This document shows, in pieces, positions 22,941 through 32,240 of a stretch of DNA of 40,232 bases; position 1 is the stretch's first letter, and every line of letters starts with the position of its first letter. A program made the translations under genes and the position numbers. This DNA comes from an uncultured Lutibacter sp. Lineage in GTDB: Bacteria > Bacteroidota > Bacteroidia > Flavobacteriales > Flavobacteriaceae. The DNA is taken from assembly GCA_947311835.1 (NCBI GenBank), contig CAMZLV010000011.1, forward strand, positions 1-40,232. Direction: 5' to 3'. The notes beneath the pieces were generated by a model. It made no database searches. It saw only the letters and a list, made by a program, of their open reading frames with translations, and was not told where the DNA came from.

Positions 22941-24119
22941 ATGAGTCAAGAAATTTCTAAAAGATATGCGCAAAGAGGCGTATCAGCGTCAAAAGAAGAT
23001 GTTCATAATGCCATTAAAAATATAGATAAAGGTCTGTTTCCGAAAGCATTTTGCAAAATTGTTCCAGATTATTTAACGGCAGATGATGCTTATTGCTTGG
23101 TAATGCATGCAGATGGTGCAGGAACAAAATCGTCATTAGCATATATGTATTGGAAAGAAACTGGCGATAGTTCTGTATGGAAAGGCATAGCGCAAGATGC
23201 GTTGATTATGAATATTGATGATTTAATATGTGTTGGCGCAACTAGTAATATTATGTTATCATCAACTATTGGAAGAAATAAAAATAAAATTCCAGGCGAA
23301 GTTATTTCTGCTATAATTAATGGTACTGAAGAGCTAATTTTTGATTTAAAAAAACACGGAGTAACCATACACTCTACAGGAGGTGAAACTGCAGATGTTG
23401 GTGATTTGGTTCGTACAATTATTGTTGATTCAACTGTAACTGCACGAATAAAACGTACAGATGTTATAGACAATGCAAATATTAAAGAAGGCGATGTAAT
23501 TGTTGGTTTGGCTTCTTTTGGTCAAGCAACTTATGAAAAAGCGTATAATGGCGGAATGGGAAGTAATGGATTAACTTCTGCACGTCATGATGTTTTTTCA
23601 AAATATTTAGCAACCAAATATCCTGAAAGTTTTGATGCATCAGTTCCTGATGATTTGGTGTACTCAGGAAATGTAAAACTTACTGATAGTGTTGAAAACG
23701 CACCAATTGATGCAGGAAAATTAGTGTTATCACCAACACGTACATATGCACCAATTATAAAAGAAATTTTATCAAAATACAGTTCAGATACCATTCACGG
23801 TATGGTACATTGTAGTGGAGGAGCGCAAACTAAAATTCTTCATTTTATTGATAATTTGCATATTGTAAAAGACAATATGTTTTCAATTCCTCCTTTATTT
23901 AAATTGATACAAGAACAATCAAAAACAGATTGGAAAGAAATGTATCAAGTCTTTAATTGTGGTCACAGAATGGAACTGTATGTAACTCCAGAAATTGCTA
24001 ATGATATAATTGCAATTTCAAAATCCTTTAATGTAGATGCTCAAATTATTGGAAAAGTAAAAGCATCAACAGAAAAAAAATTGACAATTACGAGTGAGTT
24101 TGGCGTTTTTGAGTATTAA
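22941..24119 (+). CDS. purM: Phosphoribosylformylglycinamidine cyclo-ligase (AIR synthase) family
   Basis: MSQEISKRYAQRGVSASKEDV; HADGAGTKSSLAYMYW; MNIDDLICVGA; start moved from 22854. Confidence 0.88.
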   Translation: MSQEISKRYAQRGVSASKEDVHNAIKNIDKGLFPKAFCKIVPDYLTADDAYCLVMHADGAGTKSSLAYMYWKETGDSSVWKGIAQDALIMNIDDLICVGATSNIMLSSTIGRNKNKIPGEVISAIINGTEELIFDLKKHGVTIHSTGGETADVGDLVRTIIVDSTVTARIKRTDVIDNANIKEGDVIVGLASFGQATYEKAYNGGMGSNGLTSARHDVFSKYLATKYPESFDASVPDDLVYSGNVKLTDSVENAPIDAGKLVLSPTRTYAPIIKEILSKYSSDTIHGMVHCSGGAQTKILHFIDNLHIVKDNMFSIPPLFKLIQEQSKTDWKEMYQVFNCGHRMELYVTPEIANDIIAISKSFNVDAQIIGKVKASTEKKLTITSEFGVFEY

Positions 24120-26392
24120 AAATAGACTCTAAACATAAAATTAGGCGTGATTCCTATAGCGTGTTTTTCAATTACCTTTATAGGATCGTCAATAGTGTTA
24201 TTTCCTGAAAATTCAGTACTAATATGGTTTTTATTATTGTATATATTTCGAATAGATAAGCCGATTTTTCCTTTGGTAGTACCGTTTTTAGTAAAAGAAA
24301 ACTTATAAGTTGATGAAAGGTCTAAACGATGATAGTACGGAAGTCTTTCAGTATTTATTCCGTCATAATAAGCGTTTCCATTATTATCTACATCAAGATC
24401 GGTAAGTGGTTTTCCTGACCTCCATTTCCAACCTAATGCCAGTTGAAAGTCATTAATTTTATATCCTAAAGATGCCGAAATAGCGTGTTTTATCTCCGTA
24501 TTTGCTGTGAAATACGTATTGTTGTTTAATCCGTTGTATTTGTTTTTTACGTCTAAAAAACCATAACTAATCCATGATTGTAAACGGTTGTTAAATTTCT
24601 TTTTTAGATAAAAATCAAAGCCAATAACTTTTTGTTTTCCTTTGTGAAATATATTGTCCGTTGGATTTAGAAAACCTAATGAAAGTGCAGTTATTCCGTT
24701 AATTTTTTTATAGTAGATATCAAAATCGGTAGTCCAATTGTTTTTTGAGTATGTTGCGCCACTTGATACTTGAACACTGTTTATTATGGGAAAATTATTT
24801 CCGTCAGCCAATCTCCACAGTTTTCGTTCTAATGATAAATCGCTTAAGATGGTTTCATCTATTTGGCTAATGTTTTGATTTTTTACTTCGCCTGTAAGTT
24901 GAATTTTTAAATTATCAGAAAGTTCTTTGTTTAAGATAATTCGTGGTTCAAAACGAATTTCATTCAATTTCGTATAATAGTTTGTCCGTATTCCAGCATA
25001 GATATCAAATAGTTTTGAATTTTTATATGAATAGCCTGAATAAATAGCATGTGTGTTAATCGTTGAGTTGTTTTTATCTAAAATATATAAGATGTCTTTT
25101 ACTTCTTTAAATAAAAATTCAACTTCTTTTTCAGAACTTTGATAGCCAATGTTTAAGGAGTTATTGTTATTAAGATTTATTAAAAAATCTGTAGCGAAAG
25201 TTAAATCAGAAATCGTATTTGTTTTAGAAAAATCAGAAATAAAGGTATTGTTTTGAGTAGTTATAAAATTATAGTTAAAGCGATAATTAGAAAGACTTAT
25301 ATACGTTTTTTGACTTGTATTTTCACTCCATTTTTTATTCCATTGTAGGTTGTATCCATCATTTTCAGAATCTAATATATCTTCATATTTTTCGTTTAAC
25401 GTATTGTCTGAAAAGTCGTTTTCTAAATCGTTATCAATATGGATTAAACTAAGATATAAGTTATTGTTTTTGTTTAAATTGTAATTTATTTTCAGATTAT
25501 AATCTTTAAAATAGAAATATTCGCCATCTATTTTTGTATGCTGAAATGCTTTTTGTTCGTACTTTTTAAACGTTTCTGTTTCATAAACATCTTCATAAGA
25601 CCTTCTAAATGATGCTTGTATGCTTAATTTGTTTTTTAAGATTGGTAGTTCTAAAAAAACATCTGTATTTATACCGTTAAAACCCAATTCTAATTGTGGT
25701 TTTTCTTCAATTTTAGTGCTTGTTGTAATGTCAATTACACTTGAAACTCTATCACCAAATTTAGCATTTGTTCCTTTGTTGTAAAAAGTTATTTTTTGTG
25801 CAATATTTGGGTTAAAAACAGAAACCATTCCAAATAAATGACCTGTATGGTAGATGGTTATATTGTCCCAAAGCACTCTATTTTGGTCTGAAGTTCCTCC
25901 TCTAACCGAAAAACTTGTGGCTGTTTCGTCTATACTTGTTACGCCTGGAAGTTGCTGTATGCTTTCAAGAATATCAGTTTCGGTTAATCCTGCTAAAAGT
26001 CCTAATTTATTTGGGTTTAATTGAAATGTAGCATCTTTGTTTTTTGATATTCCTTGTGTTAAATAACTTTTAACAATCACTTCTGCAATTTCTTCAACTT
26101 TGCCTAAAGTGAGGTAGTAATACGTATCACTTAATTTTTTAAATTGTATATCGGTAATTAATGAAATTTCAAAAAGAAGTTCATCCAATGTTCTTTGGTC
26201 TTTTTTAAGACTGATTTTTTTGTGAGTTATTAGTTCACTTGGATAGGAAAAATTAACATTAAAAGTCTTCTCTATATCTGAGAGAACATTCTCAAGACTT
26301 TCGTTTTCATAATAAATCTCTTTCGTGTTTTCTTGAGAAAATAGTGATATAGAAAAAAGCAAACTGAAAACTAAACGTAACACATATTTCAT
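24116..26392 (-). CDS. TonB-dependent receptor with N-terminal secretin/TonB (STN-like) domain
   Basis: Signal peptide, ENVLSDIEKTFNVNFSYPSELI...LDELLFEIS, plug TDILESIQQLPGVTSIDETATSFSVRGGTSDQNRVLWDNITIY, terminal Phe. Confidence 0.92.
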   Translation of the reverse strand: MKYVLRLVFSLLFSISLFSQENTKEIYYENESLENVLSDIEKTFNVNFSYPSELITHKKISLKKDQRTLDELLFEISLITDIQFKKLSDTYYYLTLGKVEEIAEVIVKSYLTQGISKNKDATFQLNPNKLGLLAGLTETDILESIQQLPGVTSIDETATSFSVRGGTSDQNRVLWDNITIYHTGHLFGMVSVFNPNIAQKITFYNKGTNAKFGDRVSSVIDITTSTKIEEKPQLELGFNGINTDVFLELPILKNKLSIQASFRRSYEDVYETETFKKYEQKAFQHTKIDGEYFYFKDYNLKINYNLNKNNNLYLSLIHIDNDLENDFSDNTLNEKYEDILDSENDGYNLQWNKKWSENTSQKTYISLSNYRFNYNFITTQNNTFISDFSKTNTISDLTFATDFLINLNNNNSLNIGYQSSEKEVEFLFKEVKDILYILDKNNSTINTHAIYSGYSYKNSKLFDIYAGIRTNYYTKLNEIRFEPRIILNKELSDNLKIQLTGEVKNQNISQIDETILSDLSLERKLWRLADGNNFPIINSVQVSSGATYSKNNWTTDFDIYYKKINGITALSLGFLNPTDNIFHKGKQKVIGFDFYLKKKFNNRLQSWISYGFLDVKNKYNGLNNNTYFTANTEIKHAISASLGYKINDFQLALGWKWRSGKPLTDLDVDNNGNAYYDGINTERLPYYHRLDLSSTYKFSFTKNGTTKGKIGLSIRNIYNNKNHISTEFSGNNTIDDPIKVIEKHAIGITPNFMFRVYF

Positions 26393-26403: not shown

Positions 26404-27339
26404 TTATTTACTTAAAATAACGTTTTTATCGTTAATTTGGTATTTAATATTCATAGGTTTAAATACAGAAGCCAATGCTAACGGAAGTTTTTTATTATCA
26501 AAACTACCTGTAAAGTTTAAAGTATCGTCAATTGTAGTTTTGTCAAAAGTGATGTTATATTGTTTTTCTAACGCGTCAATTACTATTTTTAACGGTACAT
26601 CTTTAAAGGTGCTTTGTCCTGATATCCAATTAGGTGCAGTGTCGTTAAGAGTCCATTTTTTTTGAGTTTTGTCAATGGTTTTAACCGCTTTTCCAGGAGT
26701 TAAAATACTAACTATTTGTGTGTTTTTGTCAGAAACTCTAACCTTACCTTCGTAGCAAATTACATCAAAATAGCCGTCTTTTGAATTTACATTAAATTGT
26801 GTTCCTAATACGGTTACACTACCATTTTTAGTATTTACTGTAAATTTATTTCCTTTAGTTACCTTAAAATATGCTTCACCATCAAGAAATAATTCTCTTT
26901 TACTTTCCCAATCTTTTTTATTGTAAGTAAGTGTAGATTTTGCATTTAAAATAACAGTTGATCCATCTAGTAAAGCAAATTCTTTTTGTTCTCCAAAACC
27001 AGAATCAATACGAACATCATTAGAACCAAAATAGTTGTAAACGCTAAAAAACAACAAGAATGATGCTGCAATTGCAACTGCACGTTTTATATAAAGTGAT
27101 AGTACTTTACCTTTTTTAGGAGTTTCAACTGTAGTTTTATGAATTCCTTCTTTTATCTTTAAGAGCGTGTTGTCTAAAGGCGCTTCTAACTCTTGTATAA
27201 TATCAAAAGTTTTACGCATTTTTTTATACGCTAAAAAATCTTCATTTGATACCTTTTCTTTCAGTTCGATATCAGAAATTTTATCTGAAATCCAATCTGC
27301 TAAAAAGGAATTTTCATTATTATATGTAATTTTACTCAT
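26404..27339 (-). CDS. FecR-family anti-sigma factor
   Basis: RIDSGFGEQKEFALLDGSTVILNAKSTLTYNK, FTVNTKNGSVTVLGTQFNV. Confidence 0.93.
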   Translation of the reverse strand: MSKITYNNENSFLADWISDKISDIELKEKVSNEDFLAYKKMRKTFDIIQELEAPLDNTLLKIKEGIHKTTVETPKKGKVLSLYIKRAVAIAASFLLFFSVYNYFGSNDVRIDSGFGEQKEFALLDGSTVILNAKSTLTYNKKDWESKRELFLDGEAYFKVTKGNKFTVNTKNGSVTVLGTQFNVNSKDGYFDVICYEGKVRVSDKNTQIVSILTPGKAVKTIDKTQKKWTLNDTAPNWISGQSTFKDVPLKIVIDALEKQYNITFDKTTIDDTLNFTGSFDNKKLPLALASVFKPMNIKYQINDKNVILSK

Positions 27340-27354: not shown

Positions 27355-27390
27355 CACTATTAAAACGATTAAGAAACAAAATACCCTACC
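27355..27390 (-). promoter_or_regulatory. 36-bp motif upstream of fecR (candidate ECF promoter, copy A)
   Basis: Minus strand GGTAGGGTATTTTGTTTCTTAATCGTTTTAATAGTG; 31/36 identical to copy B. Confidence 0.75.
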
Positions 27391-27401
27391 ATTTGATGTG
27401 A

Positions 27402-27917
27402 TTAAATAGTTCTTACTAATTTTTCTCTCATAATCACTAAAGCACTGTGCATTCTTTTTTCAACTGCTTTGACTGATATGTTTAATTCATCAGCAATTTG
27501 TTTGTATTTCTTTTTTTCTATTCTACTTAATAAAAAAACTTCTCTTTGTTTTTCAGAAAGACTTGCAATTATTTTTTCTACCTTTATTAAGTACTCTTCT
27601 TCAATCATTAAAAATTCAGGAGATTCACTCGTATTATAGTTAACAAAATTCTTTTGATGTTTGCGTACGGTGTTTTCGTGCTTTTTAATATCTAAAAAAG
27701 CATTGTTGGCTATAGTATATAGGTAACTTTTCACCTTACTATATACAACCTTACTGCAGTTGTTCCACAATTTAATAAACGTTTCTTGCAGTACGTCTTC
27801 TGCAGAAGCCATATCATTAAACTTAAAATATAAAAATCTTTTTAAATCTTTTGCATAGGTGTTAAAAACGCTGTCAAACACTTTGGTAGCACAAATATCT
27901 TTTACTTCTTCACTCAT
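27402..27917 (-). CDS. RNA polymerase sigma-70 factor, ECF subfamily
   Basis: LKRFLYFKFNDMASAEDVLQETFIKLWNN, region 4 LSEKQREVFLLSRIEKKKYKQIADELNISVKAVEKRMHSAL; start trimmed to ATG 27917. Confidence 0.92.
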   Translation of the reverse strand: MSEEVKDICATKVFDSVFNTYAKDLKRFLYFKFNDMASAEDVLQETFIKLWNNCSKVVYSKVKSYLYTIANNAFLDIKKHENTVRKHQKNFVNYNTSESPEFLMIEEEYLIKVEKIIASLSEKQREVFLLSRIEKKKYKQIADELNISVKAVEKRMHSALVIMREKLVRTI

Positions 27918-27937
27918 TTTTATAATAGGGTTTTGCA

Positions 27938-27945
27938 CAAATGTA
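27938..27945 (-). promoter_or_regulatory. TACATTTG -7 element upstream of the sigma gene
   Basis: Minus-strand TACATTTG, 20 nt before ATG 27917. Confidence 0.45.
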
Positions 27946-27964
27946 AAAAAAAAATACGTCTTAG

Positions 27965-28000
27965 GGTAGGGTGTTTTATTTCTTATTCGTTTTACTTGTG
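27965..28000 (+). promoter_or_regulatory. 36-bp motif upstream of TSP3 operon (candidate ECF promoter, copy B)
   Basis: GGTAGGGTGTTTTATTTCTTATTCGTTTTACTTGTG. Confidence 0.75.
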
Positions 28001-28039: not shown

Positions 28040-29077
28040 ATGAAAACGACAAATCAAAAAACAATGAAAACAATGAAAAATTTTAAATTAGCAACAATTG
28101 CACTATTAGTAGCAGGAATGTCTTTAACATCTTGTAAATCGGATAACGAAAGTGGAGGAAACGAAGTAAATGAAGGTTCAACTGCCAAATTGGTAACAGA
28201 AATACTTCAAGACAAAACAACAAATGCAACAAACTTTACTACATCAAGTTTAGAATCAAATTTAAATTTAGATTTTGGATTTACTTTTAATTATCCTGTA
28301 ACTTTAATCTATAATAATGACTCACAAACAGTAATTTCTACTTCAGCACAATTATTAACTGTTGTTGAATCAATGACTGCAGCACAATATGTAAAGGATA
28401 TTCAATTTCCATTTTCAGTTTCAACACCAACAGGAAGAGGGTTAGAAACAATAAACACAGATTCAGATTTTAGTAACTTGATTAATCAGGTAGATACTGA
28501 TGGTGATGGCGAACCTAACTATACTGATACAGATGATGATGGCGATGGAGTTGCAGATACTGATGAAGATACAAATAATGATGGTGATGCAACAAACGAT
28601 GATACTGATGGAGACGGAACTCCAGATTATCAAGATACAGATGATGATAATGATGGTGTAGCTACAGCAGACGAAGATATTGATGGAAATGGTGATGCTA
28701 CAAATGATGATACAGATGGTGATGGAATACCAAACTACCAAGACACAGATGATGATGGTGATGGTGTAGATACTGCAAATGAAGATTATGATCAAAATGG
28801 AAACCCTTCCGATAATGATTCAGACGGAGACGGAACACCTGATTATTTAGATACTGATTCTGATAACGATGGTACAGATGACGGAAATGATTCAGATGCA
28901 AATGGTGATGGTGTAGATGATGCAGATGAAAATGGCGGCGGAGACACTGACGGTGGAGGAGACACTGATGGTGGAGGAGACACTGATGGTGGAGGAGACA
29001 CTGATGGAGGAGGAGATACTGATGGAGGCGGAGATACTGATGGTGGAGGAGATACTGATGGAGGTAGAGGGAAATAA
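28040..29077 (+). CDS. Lipoprotein with Asp-rich thrombospondin type-3-like calcium-binding repeats and GGGDTD tail
   Basis: Lipobox SLTSC; repeated DTDGDGTPDYQDTDDDNDGVATADEDIDGNGDATND units; start could be 28073. Confidence 0.85.
   Translation: MKTTNQKTMKTMKNFKLATIALLVAGMSLTSCKSDNESGGNEVNEGSTAKLVTEILQDKTTNATNFTTSSLESNLNLDFGFTFNYPVTLIYNNDSQTVISTSAQLLTVVESMTAAQYVKDIQFPFSVSTPTGRGLETINTDSDFSNLINQVDTDGDGEPNYTDTDDDGDGVADTDEDTNNDGDATNDDTDGDGTPDYQDTDDDNDGVATADEDIDGNGDATNDDTDGDGIPNYQDTDDDGDGVDTANEDYDQNGNPSDNDSDGDGTPDYLDTDSDNDGTDDGNDSDANGDGVDDADENGGGDTDGGGDTDGGGDTDGGGDTDGGGDTDGGGDTDGGGDTDGGRGK
28934..29059 (+). repeat. 18-bp tandem repeat x7 (GGGDTD)
   Basis: ggtggaggagacactgat-type units in frame. 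Confidence 0.95.
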
Positions 29078-29100
29078 TATTTAAAAAAGTATAAATTTAT

Positions 29101-29130
29101 AAAGGATGGTCATATATTTGACTGTCCTTT
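29101..29130 (+). terminator. Imperfect hairpin after TSP3 gene
   Basis: aaaggatggtca tatat ttgactgtccttt followed by T/A tract. Confidence 0.45.
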
Positions 29131-29150
29131 ATTTTAAATTAAAATAACAA

Positions 29151-29576
29151 ATGAAAAATTTACTATTTATTTTTTTAGTCCTATTTAGTTTTTCAATTAA
29201 TGCACAAGAATGGCATTCAAACATTGAAACTGCAAAAAAAATAGCAGCAGCAAAAAATCAGCATATTGTTTTAGTGTTTTCAGGATCAGATTGGTGTGGG
29301 CCTTGCAAAAAATTAGAACAACAAATATGGTCTTCGGAAGAGTTTAAAAACTATGCAAAAGACCATTTAGTAATGTTAAAAGCCGATTTTCCTAGAAGAA
29401 AGAAAAACAAATTATCTAAAGAACAACAAGAGCATAACAATATGTTGGCTGAAAAATACGATGCAAGATTTCCTTTGATAGTTACACTTAATTCAGAAGG
29501 AAAAGTTTTAGGACGTATCGGATACAAAAATTATACGCCAACCGAATATATTGAATATTTAAAAAGTATTGAGTAA
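29151..29576 (+). CDS. Exported thioredoxin-family protein
   Basis: Signal peptide; FSGSDWCGPCKKLEQQIWSS. Confidence 0.9.
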   Translation: MKNLLFIFLVLFSFSINAQEWHSNIETAKKIAAAKNQHIVLVFSGSDWCGPCKKLEQQIWSSEEFKNYAKDHLVMLKADFPRRKKNKLSKEQQEHNNMLAEKYDARFPLIVTLNSEGKVLGRIGYKNYTPTEYIEYLKSIE

Positions 29577-30565
29577 TGAAAAAAATAATTTTAATTTCTT
29601 TATTAATTAGTTTTATTTCTTGCCAACCACAACAACAGCCTCAAAAATATAAAGAAGTTGTAAAATTGATGGGAAGTCGTTTTGATATTACCGTTGTAGC
29701 ATCAAATAAAGAAGAAGCAAATCAATATATTGATGTAGCAATTGAAGAAATTAAAAGAATTGAAAACATTATTTCATCATGGAATCCAAACTCTCAAACA
29801 TCTTTAATCAATAAAAATGCAGGAATAAAACCTGTAAAAGTTGATGAAGAATTATTTAATTTAATAGAAAGAAGTTTGATGATTTCTAAATTGACCAATG
29901 GTGCATTTGATATAAGTTATGCATCAATGGATAAAATTTGGAAATTTGATGGTACTATGAAAACATTTCCTTCAGAAGAAGAAATCGCAAAATCAGTATT
30001 AAAAGTAGGTTTTGAAAATATTATTTTAGATAAAAAACAGCAAACAGTTTTTTTAAAATTAAAAGGAATGAAAATCGGTTTTGGTGCAATAGGAAAAGGA
30101 TACGCAGCAGATAAAACCAAAAAACTACTTATAGGCAAAGGTGTAAAAGCAGGTATAATTAACGCTTCTGGAGACATGAACACTTGGGGAAAGCAACCAA
30201 ATGGAGAAGATTGGATGGTAGGAATTACTAATCCGATGAATAAAAATAAGGTTTTTGCTTTATTGCCTATTTCTAATTCAGCAGTAGTAACTTCTGGAAA
30301 CTATGAAAAATATGTAAAATTTAACGGAAAACGTTATACACATATAATAAATCCAAAAACAGGTTATCCAAGTTCAGGGATTATAAGTGTTAGTGTATTT
30401 GCATCAAAAGCAGAATTAGCAGATGCTTTGGCAACATCAATTTTTGTTATGGGAAAAGAAACAGGATTAGATTTTATTAACCAATTAAATGGAGTAGAGT
30501 GCGTACTTGTAGATGATGCAGGTAAAATACACACTTCAAAAACCATTAAACTTAAAAACAACTAG
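29576..30565 (+). CDS. apbE: FAD:protein FMN transferase (ApbE), lipoprotein
   Basis: Lipobox FISC; LMGSRFDITVVA, NASGDMNTWGKQPNGEDWMVGITNP, YTHIINPKTGYP; start overlaps thioredoxin stop (TAATG). Confidence 0.93.
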   Translation: MKKIILISLLISFISCQPQQQPQKYKEVVKLMGSRFDITVVASNKEEANQYIDVAIEEIKRIENIISSWNPNSQTSLINKNAGIKPVKVDEELFNLIERSLMISKLTNGAFDISYASMDKIWKFDGTMKTFPSEEEIAKSVLKVGFENIILDKKQQTVFLKLKGMKIGFGAIGKGYAADKTKKLLIGKGVKAGIINASGDMNTWGKQPNGEDWMVGITNPMNKNKVFALLPISNSAVVTSGNYEKYVKFNGKRYTHIINPKTGYPSSGIISVSVFASKAELADALATSIFVMGKETGLDFINQLNGVECVLVDDAGKIHTSKTIKLKNN

Positions 30566-30566
30566 T

Positions 30567-30776
30567 ATGAAAAATATATTTGTTATCGCAATAATAGTAT
30601 TTACATTATTTTCTTGCGCTACGCTAAAAGAATATGAAAAAGTAAATATTAATGATCCAGATATGGTGCTAACTGCAAATAAAATTGAAAAATTTGAAAC
30701 AAATTTTCAATCATATAGAGAAGGTGCTTCTGGAGCAAATGGAGGTAAAACAGGTGGAGGTTGTGGATGTAATTAA
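30567..30776 (+). CDS. DUF4266 small lipoprotein
   Basis: MKNIFVIAIIVFTLFSCATLKEYEKVNINDPDMVLTANKIEKFETNFQSYREGASGANGGKTGGGCGCN. Confidence 0.88.
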   Translation: MKNIFVIAIIVFTLFSCATLKEYEKVNINDPDMVLTANKIEKFETNFQSYREGASGANGGKTGGGCGCN

Positions 30777-30785
30777 AGAATAAAA

Positions 30786-32240
30786 ATGAAAAAAATACAG
30801 ATATTTATATTATTAATAACTTCGTTTTCCGTTTTCGCACAACAAGAAAATACTGAAAATGAAACCTATAAAAAACGAGTTTTAGAAACTGCAGAAGTTG
30901 ATTTCTTAATGAGTTATTATGCGCAAACAGGAACGCATGCCTCAGTAACAGGAGGTATTGGAAACGAAAAATTATCCGATGTAACACCAACAATTATTAT
31001 TTCATTACCGCTAAACGATAATGATGTACTAACTGTAGATGCAGGAATTTCTGCTTACACATCAGCATCATCAAGTAATCTAAATCCCTTTGATTCTTCA
31101 GGAGCGTCAAGAAATGGAGGTGATGATGATGATGACAGAAGTTTACGAGCAGCAACACCAATAACAGGAAGTCCTTGGGTTGAATCTTCAGGTGCATCGC
31201 GTCAAGATGTTTGGTCAAACGGAATAATTAGTTATTCTCACAGTTCAGACGATAGAAATAGTGTTTGGAGTGCACACGTTGGAGTAGCAGCAGAATTTGA
31301 TTATACATCTTTTGGTTTTGGTGGAGGTTTTACAAAATTATTTAATGAACAAAACACAGAAATAGGAGTTAAAGGTCAAGTATATATGGATGCTTGGAAC
31401 CCAAGATATCCAACGGAATTAGATTCGTATATAGAAGCAGGAAATAATTTGTATAACGGTTTCTTTAGTGGACTTGATATTCTTAATCAAAACGGTGTTG
31501 CAATTAATAAGAATAGCGTAAATGCTTGGAAACCATTTAATACAACTTTGGTAACAGATAAGGCAAGAAATTCGTATTCTGTATCCGTTAGTTTTTCACA
31601 AATTTTAAGTAAAAAATCACAAATATCATTGTTTTTTGATGTTGTGAATCAGCAAGGATGGTTAGCAAACCCAACACAACGCGTATATTTTGGAGATAGA
31701 CCAAACTTTTATATTGGTACTGCATCAAGTATTCCTAATTATACTTCAACTTCTAATACAGATGTTTTTCATTTGGCAGATGACATAGAACGGATGCCAA
31801 GTTCGCGACTTAAAATACCAGTTGGAATGCGATTTAATTATTACGTCAATGAAATACTATCAATTAGAACCTATTATCGTTATTATACCGATGATTGGGG
31901 AATTGATTCGCACACAGCAAATGTAGAATTGCCAATCAAAATTTCTGAAAAATTCACGTTATATCCAACCTATAGATATTACCAACAAACAGCAGCAGAT
32001 TATTTTGCGCCATACGAACAAAACCTTTCAACTCAAGAGTTTTATACTTCTGATTATGACTTGTCTAAATTTGATAGCAATCAATACGGACTTGGTATAA
32101 AATATACAGATGTTTTTACAAAAGCCAAGATTTATACTTTTGGAATAAAAACGGTTGATTTACGCTACAATAATTATTCACGAAGCGATGGATTAAATTC
32201 AGGAATAATTTCATTCGGAATAAAATTTGTAAACGATTAA
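30786..32240 (+). CDS. DUF3570 domain protein (predicted outer-membrane beta barrel)
   Basis: Signal peptide; TPTIIISLPLNDNDVLTVDAGISAYTSASSSNLNPFDSSGAS...; DUF4266/ApbE neighbourhood. Confidence 0.85.
   Translation: MKKIQIFILLITSFSVFAQQENTENETYKKRVLETAEVDFLMSYYAQTGTHASVTGGIGNEKLSDVTPTIIISLPLNDNDVLTVDAGISAYTSASSSNLNPFDSSGASRNGGDDDDDRSLRAATPITGSPWVESSGASRQDVWSNGIISYSHSSDDRNSVWSAHVGVAAEFDYTSFGFGGGFTKLFNEQNTEIGVKGQVYMDAWNPRYPTELDSYIEAGNNLYNGFFSGLDILNQNGVAINKNSVNAWKPFNTTLVTDKARNSYSVSVSFSQILSKKSQISLFFDVVNQQGWLANPTQRVYFGDRPNFYIGTASSIPNYTSTSNTDVFHLADDIERMPSSRLKIPVGMRFNYYVNEILSIRTYYRYYTDDWGIDSHTANVELPIKISEKFTLYPTYRYYQQTAADYFAPYEQNLSTQEFYTSDYDLSKFDSNQYGLGIKYTDVFTKAKIYTFGIKTVDLRYNNYSRSDGLNSGIISFGIKFVND

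Follow-up and report, generated by a model that had tools for sequence, protein, structure and literature searches.

The window, by which we mean the whole 40,232-nucleotide stretch of uncultured Lutibacter DNA analysed here, contains a gene encoding an ECF sigma factor. On one side of this gene are fecR and a TonB-dependent receptor gene and on the other, divergently oriented, a lipoprotein gene followed by genes of a flavin redox operon. Which of these genes does the sigma factor control? The original prediction held that a 36-nt motif found upstream of both fecR and the divergent cluster is an ECF promoter, through which the sigma factor transcribes both sides of the locus but not its own gene.

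Gene content of the locus

The gene identities assigned to the two sides of the locus held up on domain searching. The minus strand carries a TonB-dependent receptor of 758 residues (24116–26392; Pfam FecR_C, 1.2e-07, and Plug, 9.8e-06), a FecR-type sigma regulator or anti-sigma factor of 311 residues (26404–27339; Pfam FecR, PF04773, 3.7e-20) and the ECF sigma factor of about 171 residues (27402–27917), which has regions 2 and 4 only (Pfam Sigma70_r2 and Sigma70_r4_2). The receptor has an N-terminal match to a FecR_C/STN-like signalling domain (residues 26–90) followed by the plug (residues 138–214). The fecR gene adjoins the sigma gene and encodes the sole FecR match in the organism's own assembly. 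An ECF sigma factor, an adjacent FecR and a receptor with an N-terminal signalling domain are all present, a layout that fits FecI/FecR/TonB-receptor signalling.

On the plus strand the first gene (28040–29077) encodes a TSP3-repeat lipoprotein with a cysteine after the signal peptide and a low-complexity Asp/Gly tail; its Pfam TSP_3 match is weak (22 bits, below the cut-off). It is followed by genes for a secreted thioredoxin-like protein (trx, 29151–29576; Pfam Thioredoxin_7, 5.8e-14), a lipoprotein form of the FAD:protein FMN transferase ApbE (29576–30565; Pfam ApbE, 2.5e-86), a small DUF4266 lipoprotein ending in CGCN (30567–30776; Pfam DUF4266, 7.9e-20) and a DUF3570 outer-membrane protein (30786–32240; Pfam DUF3570, 1.3e-39). 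The DUF4266 reading frame was called from 30513, and starting it at the ATG at 30567 yields a lipoprotein signal. The same four genes make up the ApbE/DUF3570/DUF4266/thioredoxin clusters described among DsbD systems by Meheust et al. 2021 (PMC8238504), in which DUF4266 has a C-terminal CXC and DUF3570 was shown experimentally, in Chlorobium luteolum, to be flavinylated at two [S/T]GA[S/T] sites. The window has the features of such a flavinylation cluster: a Trx-like protein, ApbE, a DUF4266 protein with CXC and a DUF3570 protein with two SGAS motifs (residues 105 and 135). A domain search of ten neighbouring genes found no DsbD; 316 flavinylation clusters lacking DsbD have been reported, and DsbD is not essential (PMC8238504).

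Two copies of a two-box motif

The motif occurs twice, at 27390–27355 on the minus strand and 27965–28000 on the plus strand, and the positions, orientations and identity (31 of 36) are as first described. In the first copy, the putative promoter of the fecR-TonB receptor unit (P1), the -35 box GGTAGGGT (27390–27383) is separated by a 15-nt spacer from the -10 box CGTTTTA (27367–27361). In the second, the putative promoter of the divergent lipoprotein gene (P2), the same boxes lie at 27965–27972 and 27988–27994, again with a 15-nt spacer. Although the copies are alike, as claimed, a single 36-nt element is not the best description of them. Between species the spacer changes, and hence we prefer two conserved boxes, GGTAGGGT and CGTTTTA.

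The claim that the window holds no further copy also stood. A 30-nt degenerate core allowing up to three mismatches gave two matches in the window and none in 100 shuffles, and GGTAGGGT occurs exactly twice where 0.19 occurrences are expected. A profile of the family motif, built from 78 training sites that include both window copies, scored these copies at 34.1 and 30.6, the next-best place in the window scoring 5.9. Pattern searches of the whole assembly, an 84% complete draft of 2,287,451 bases (2.29 Mb), returned the P1 and P2 places and no others, both with the 30-nt core and with the looser GTAGGGT-N14-16-YGTYNTA (reversed controls, 0 in each case). Scattering over unrelated sites, which was to have counted against the prediction, is thus not seen in this genome. 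One extra match of a looser pattern (G000:C30:2428) was discarded; it lies inside a coding region and does not match the profile.

Conservation of the motif in relatives

Scanning GTDB genomes with a receptor alignment yielded 46 loci, which according to the record titles all belong to Flavobacteriales. In these related loci the receptor is linked to sigma and fecR, and most have a homologous lipoprotein gene at the same position. Motifs were counted in the 43 loci, drawn from these 46 plus the window, that have sigma and fecR together. We used a strict two-box pattern, TAGGG followed after 16–17 nt by [C/T]GT, which is equivalent to a spacing of 15–16 nt after GGTAGGGT. Conservation in orthologous loci, the check proposed with the prediction, was evident: with the window included, the pattern was found upstream of fecR in 42 of the 43 loci (antisense, 0; shuffles, mean 0.13) and in 36 it preceded the divergent lipoprotein gene (antisense, 1; shuffles, mean 0.17). 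The motif is conserved across many marine flavobacteria.

Copies as similar as those of the window could arise by duplication, and the pair might then be a recent duplication of non-functional sequence, or chance similarity. The shuffles, however, gave no matches, and across many genera the boxes are kept at orthologous positions while the spacers have diverged, which refutes this explanation; we consider its remaining probability negligible. In a further set of paralogous sigma-fecR loci from the relatives the motif again stands in both places, its -35 box taking variant forms (GGTAGGAGT and GGTAGGAAT, for example); therefore it would be a family-wide promoter rather than a private repeat.

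A putative promoter of the sigma gene

The sigma gene was predicted to have a housekeeping-like box of its own, and it does: TACATTTG, a -7 box of the form TAnnTTTG, lies on the minus strand at 27945–27938. TAnnTTTG is the flavobacterial housekeeping box (PMC9723704). As the GTG at 27938, the listed start of the reading frame, overlaps this box, the sigma factor most likely starts at the ATG at 27917. TAnnTTTG is present upstream of the sigma gene in 38 of 41 loci, versus 10% of shuffles. As nearly all sigma genes carry this box, the prediction that the sigma factor does not drive its own gene holds, with one exception. Within the related-locus set, L128 (G191:C169:157-184) alone has an ECF motif pointing at the sigma gene, just upstream of its start at 209, and TAnnTTTG is absent there; hence autoregulation appears to have arisen in that locus.

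The housekeeping box and P2 stand back to back. Of 37 loci, 20 have a gap of exactly 23 nt between them; in the window it is 19 nt (27946–27964). This suggests that the promoter pair is constrained in spacing, and two polymerases may thus exclude each other at this place.

Covariation of the -10 box with sigma region 2.4

The two promoters of a locus agree in the first base of the -10 box in all 38 loci compared (30 T, 8 C), whereas permutation gave a mean of 25.4 and none of 10,000 permutations reached as high a value. This base tracks a residue of sigma region 2.4. Across 82 distinct sigmas, wherever the site is readable, Asp is always paired with CGT and Asn with TGT. The window sigma has Asp (D83 in the GTG numbering), and the twelfth Asp sigma, that of L156, has GGTAGGT...CGT at both places. 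By alignment, counted by hand, the position corresponds to Asp79 of Mycobacterium tuberculosis SigL; Lin et al. suggested that SigL residues 78–82, in a helix, could contact the bases immediately preceding the -10 element (PMC6372665). On the sigma tree the Asp sigmas group in a single branch (100/91 support) with one change, and when independent Asp/Asn-C/T switches were sought on this tree none was found. The many instances are therefore not independent evidence, and the agreement between P1 and P2 partly reflects shared ancestry. The base after GT also agrees between the promoters (31 of 38 loci; permutation mean, 14.6), an agreement that could not be traced to any one sigma residue of the specificity loop. 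The link between the Asp/Asn residue and the -10 base appears new.

These data bear on two other ways of reading the motif. Sequence conservation alone cannot separate a promoter from a transcription-factor binding site, but the motif is asymmetric and strand-specific. Its -35 and CGT-like -10 boxes are 15–16 nt apart, as in ECF-type promoters, and it sits just upstream of, and always directed towards, a nearby start codon. Moreover, its first -10 base follows the region 2.4 residue, and sigma and FecR are the only regulators common to the loci. We consider a transcription-factor site very improbable. Less improbable, but still improbable, is that the motif is read by another of the cell's ECF sigmas and the local sigma reads something else. 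Several genomes contain several paralogous sigma-FecR loci with similar motifs, and thus cross-talk is possible; on the other hand, variant boxes stay matched within loci, and the Lutibacter assembly has a single FecR match, and its two motif copies lie on either side of the one sigma gene. The comparative evidence therefore strongly supports the predicted role of the motif, that of an ECF promoter at which the adjacent sigma factor would act to drive the fecR-TonB receptor unit and the divergent gene. For the receptor transcription unit, conservation and covariation point to a putative sigma-dependent promoter.

The redox operon

The prediction that the sigma factor also drives the redox cluster requires division. 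In the window P2 directly precedes the lipoprotein gene only, and between that gene and trx lies a terminator- or attenuator-like hairpin of 14 pairs (29099–29132, plus strand) with a stability of -18 kcal/mol (z -4.4 against shuffles). Strong hairpins were found in 12 of 15 other lipoprotein-trx gaps. The gaps of L129 and L268 have no hairpin, whereas in L156 the whole gap folds into a long stem that fails the short-hairpin test. Given a hairpin in the window and in most relatives, simple co-transcription of the lipoprotein gene and trx is not favoured. We found no convincing separate promoter in the lipoprotein-trx gap of the window, the candidate TATATTTG being within the hairpin loop.

Support comes instead from relatives. 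With a 13-bit profile threshold and indels allowed there were 18 matches versus 10 in the reversed control, which is too noisy, and thus claims concerning the redox operon were limited to matches of about 22 bits or more. At that level (at least 22 bits, over 1.2 Mb) there were 26 matches versus 1 in reversed sequence. Four genomes have the motif immediately upstream of trx: G106 (L035, 26.1 bits), G059 (L037, 27.0 bits), G188 (L274, 24.4 bits) and G192 (L269, 22.2 bits). In G059 a second copy (25.7 bits) precedes the DUF4266 gene. This region is syntenic with the window, having an AIR-synthase-like gene upstream and a peptide-release-factor gene downstream, and the sigma module is absent from it. 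In G192 the lipoprotein gene is followed by a hairpin, then a second promoter and then trx. In G037 the motif (23.5 bits) stands before a gene for a Rieske protein, after which comes trx-apbE-DUF4266-DUF3570.

The association is not universal. Sigma module, motif and redox operon occur together in 11 loci, the window included, and a second group of loci has unrelated genes after the lipoprotein gene. Most DUF4266 clusters in the family are without the motif, and we therefore rejected the idea that this promoter governs every such cluster. As the genes next to the lipoprotein gene vary and most DUF4266 clusters lack the motif, the conserved core is sigma, fecR, receptor and lipoprotein, which the redox operon has joined in some lineages.

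It could be argued from the hairpins, the second group of loci and the motif-free DUF4266 clusters that the sigma factor drives the fecR-receptor unit and the lipoprotein gene only, the redox operon being a separately expressed neighbour. We think this unlikely, though it retains a real share of the probability. The motif directly precedes trx or DUF4266 in independent genomes, G192 has a second sigma promoter after its hairpin, L129 and L268 lack the hairpin, and the window gap offers no convincing promoter for separate expression. As relatives carry the motif before trx, DUF4266 or a Rieske-trx operon, membership of the redox operon in the sigma regulon is well supported by comparison among genomes, and that part of the prediction stands. 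Control is less direct than predicted, however, a hairpin standing after the lipoprotein gene of the window. This hairpin could disconnect the redox operon there; most probably the operon is reached by reduced read-through.

In a Yeosuana aromativorans locus (L036:11052-11519, the same as L132) the lipoprotein gene is missing or decayed, and two motif copies with hairpins remain between sigma and trx. In one genome, L269 and L270 together contain three identical 38-nt motif copies, which flank trx and lipoprotein genes that are nearly identical, indicating either recent duplication or assembly overlap between contigs.

Motif copies at other genes

The strongest single copy in G192 (31.5 bits) is found before an operon encoding a cytochrome c lipoprotein, YceI and a DUF5777 barrel, and G106 has a weaker copy (16.3 bits) before a similar operon. 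Motif copies before such an operon in two genomes are at L271:3169-3198 and L220:2320-2349, hinting that such a sigma factor also controls a cytochrome-type redox operon. A cytochrome/YceI/DUF5777 region in G186 is without the motif, and no DUF5777 gene was found in the 84% complete Lutibacter assembly.

Three close relatives have the motif before a gene for a small protein of 105–114 residues (L275:3975, L277:3025 and L281:2637) that adjoins a ribonuclease-Z-like gene; in L281 the protein has a type IX secretion tail. In G134, motif-like copies with AGTTGTAATAT -10 boxes (L222:3444 and L222:14943) lie near cytochrome-biogenesis-like genes.

Discussion

The locus shares with E. coli FecI/FecR/FecA an ECF sigma factor, a FecR regulator and a TonB receptor with an N-terminal signalling domain. 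E. coli fecIR also has its sigma gene on a housekeeping promoter and is not autoregulated, and a hairpin after the first structural gene, fecA, lets a reduced level of downstream genes through (PMC9249621). The systems differ in that E. coli fecR is co-transcribed with fecI, whereas the Lutibacter fecR would be driven by the sigma factor from P1, and in their output: a ferric-citrate ABC transporter in E. coli, a surface lipoprotein and a flavin redox operon here. In the Serratia HasI/HasS/HasR haem signalling system, as covered in the same source (PMC9249621), the sigma gene is likewise not autoregulated and the regulator hasS rises with sigma, but receptor, cargo and gene order differ and the passages concerned report no divergent lipoprotein. 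The SM6 motif of Flavobacterium psychrophilum, from flavobacterial ECF promoters, has the same CGT in its -10 box. SM6, however, controls type IX secretion genes, and the text of PMC9723704 includes neither GTAGGG nor TAGGG and mentions no FecR system. The text of Meheust et al. has no sigma factor or FecR (PMC8238504), and TonB-receptor sigma control is the element added here. In the open literature we found no paper on the motif or on an ECF sigma factor with flavinylation in Bacteroidetes. Redox cargo under FecI/FecR/TonB-receptor-type signalling appears new.

We put at roughly 85% the probability that P1 and P2 are promoters of the adjacent ECF sigma factor acting in surface signalling, with the redox operon in the same regulon. 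By analogy with the FecA/FecR/FecI family, a ligand at the outer-membrane receptor would signal via the receptor N-terminal domain to FecR, which would release or activate the sigma factor. From P1 the active sigma factor would transcribe fecR and the receptor gene, which amounts to feedback, and from P2 the gene of the divergent surface lipoprotein, while the sigma gene itself would be expressed from its TAnnTTTG promoter. The Trx-ApbE-DUF4266-DUF3570 operon would belong to the same regulon, reached in the window probably by reduced read-through past the hairpin and in several relatives from a promoter copy of its own. A broader proposal, which we offer tentatively and at somewhat less than even odds, is that in flavobacteria one receptor-FecR-sigma switch turns on operons for electron transfer at the outer membrane that differ in chemistry, namely the flavinylated DUF3570 system and, in some relatives, a cytochrome/YceI/DUF5777 operon, the CGT or TGT of the -10 box being set by Asp or Asn in region 2.4.

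The present analysis assigns a probable regulator and a promoter code to the extracellular DUF3570/DUF4266 flavin system, for which flavinylation has been shown. Identification of the receptor ligand, or activation of the sigma factor, would show when the flavin redox system is needed. The Asp/Asn-C/T correspondence gives a concrete test of the proposed contact upstream of the ECF -10 element, and the motif provides a way to read the regulons of the large flavobacterial sigma-FecR-receptor family from sequence alone. In Lutibacter and its relatives, a shared promoter signal would tie an outer-membrane sensing system to extracellular flavin-based redox genes.
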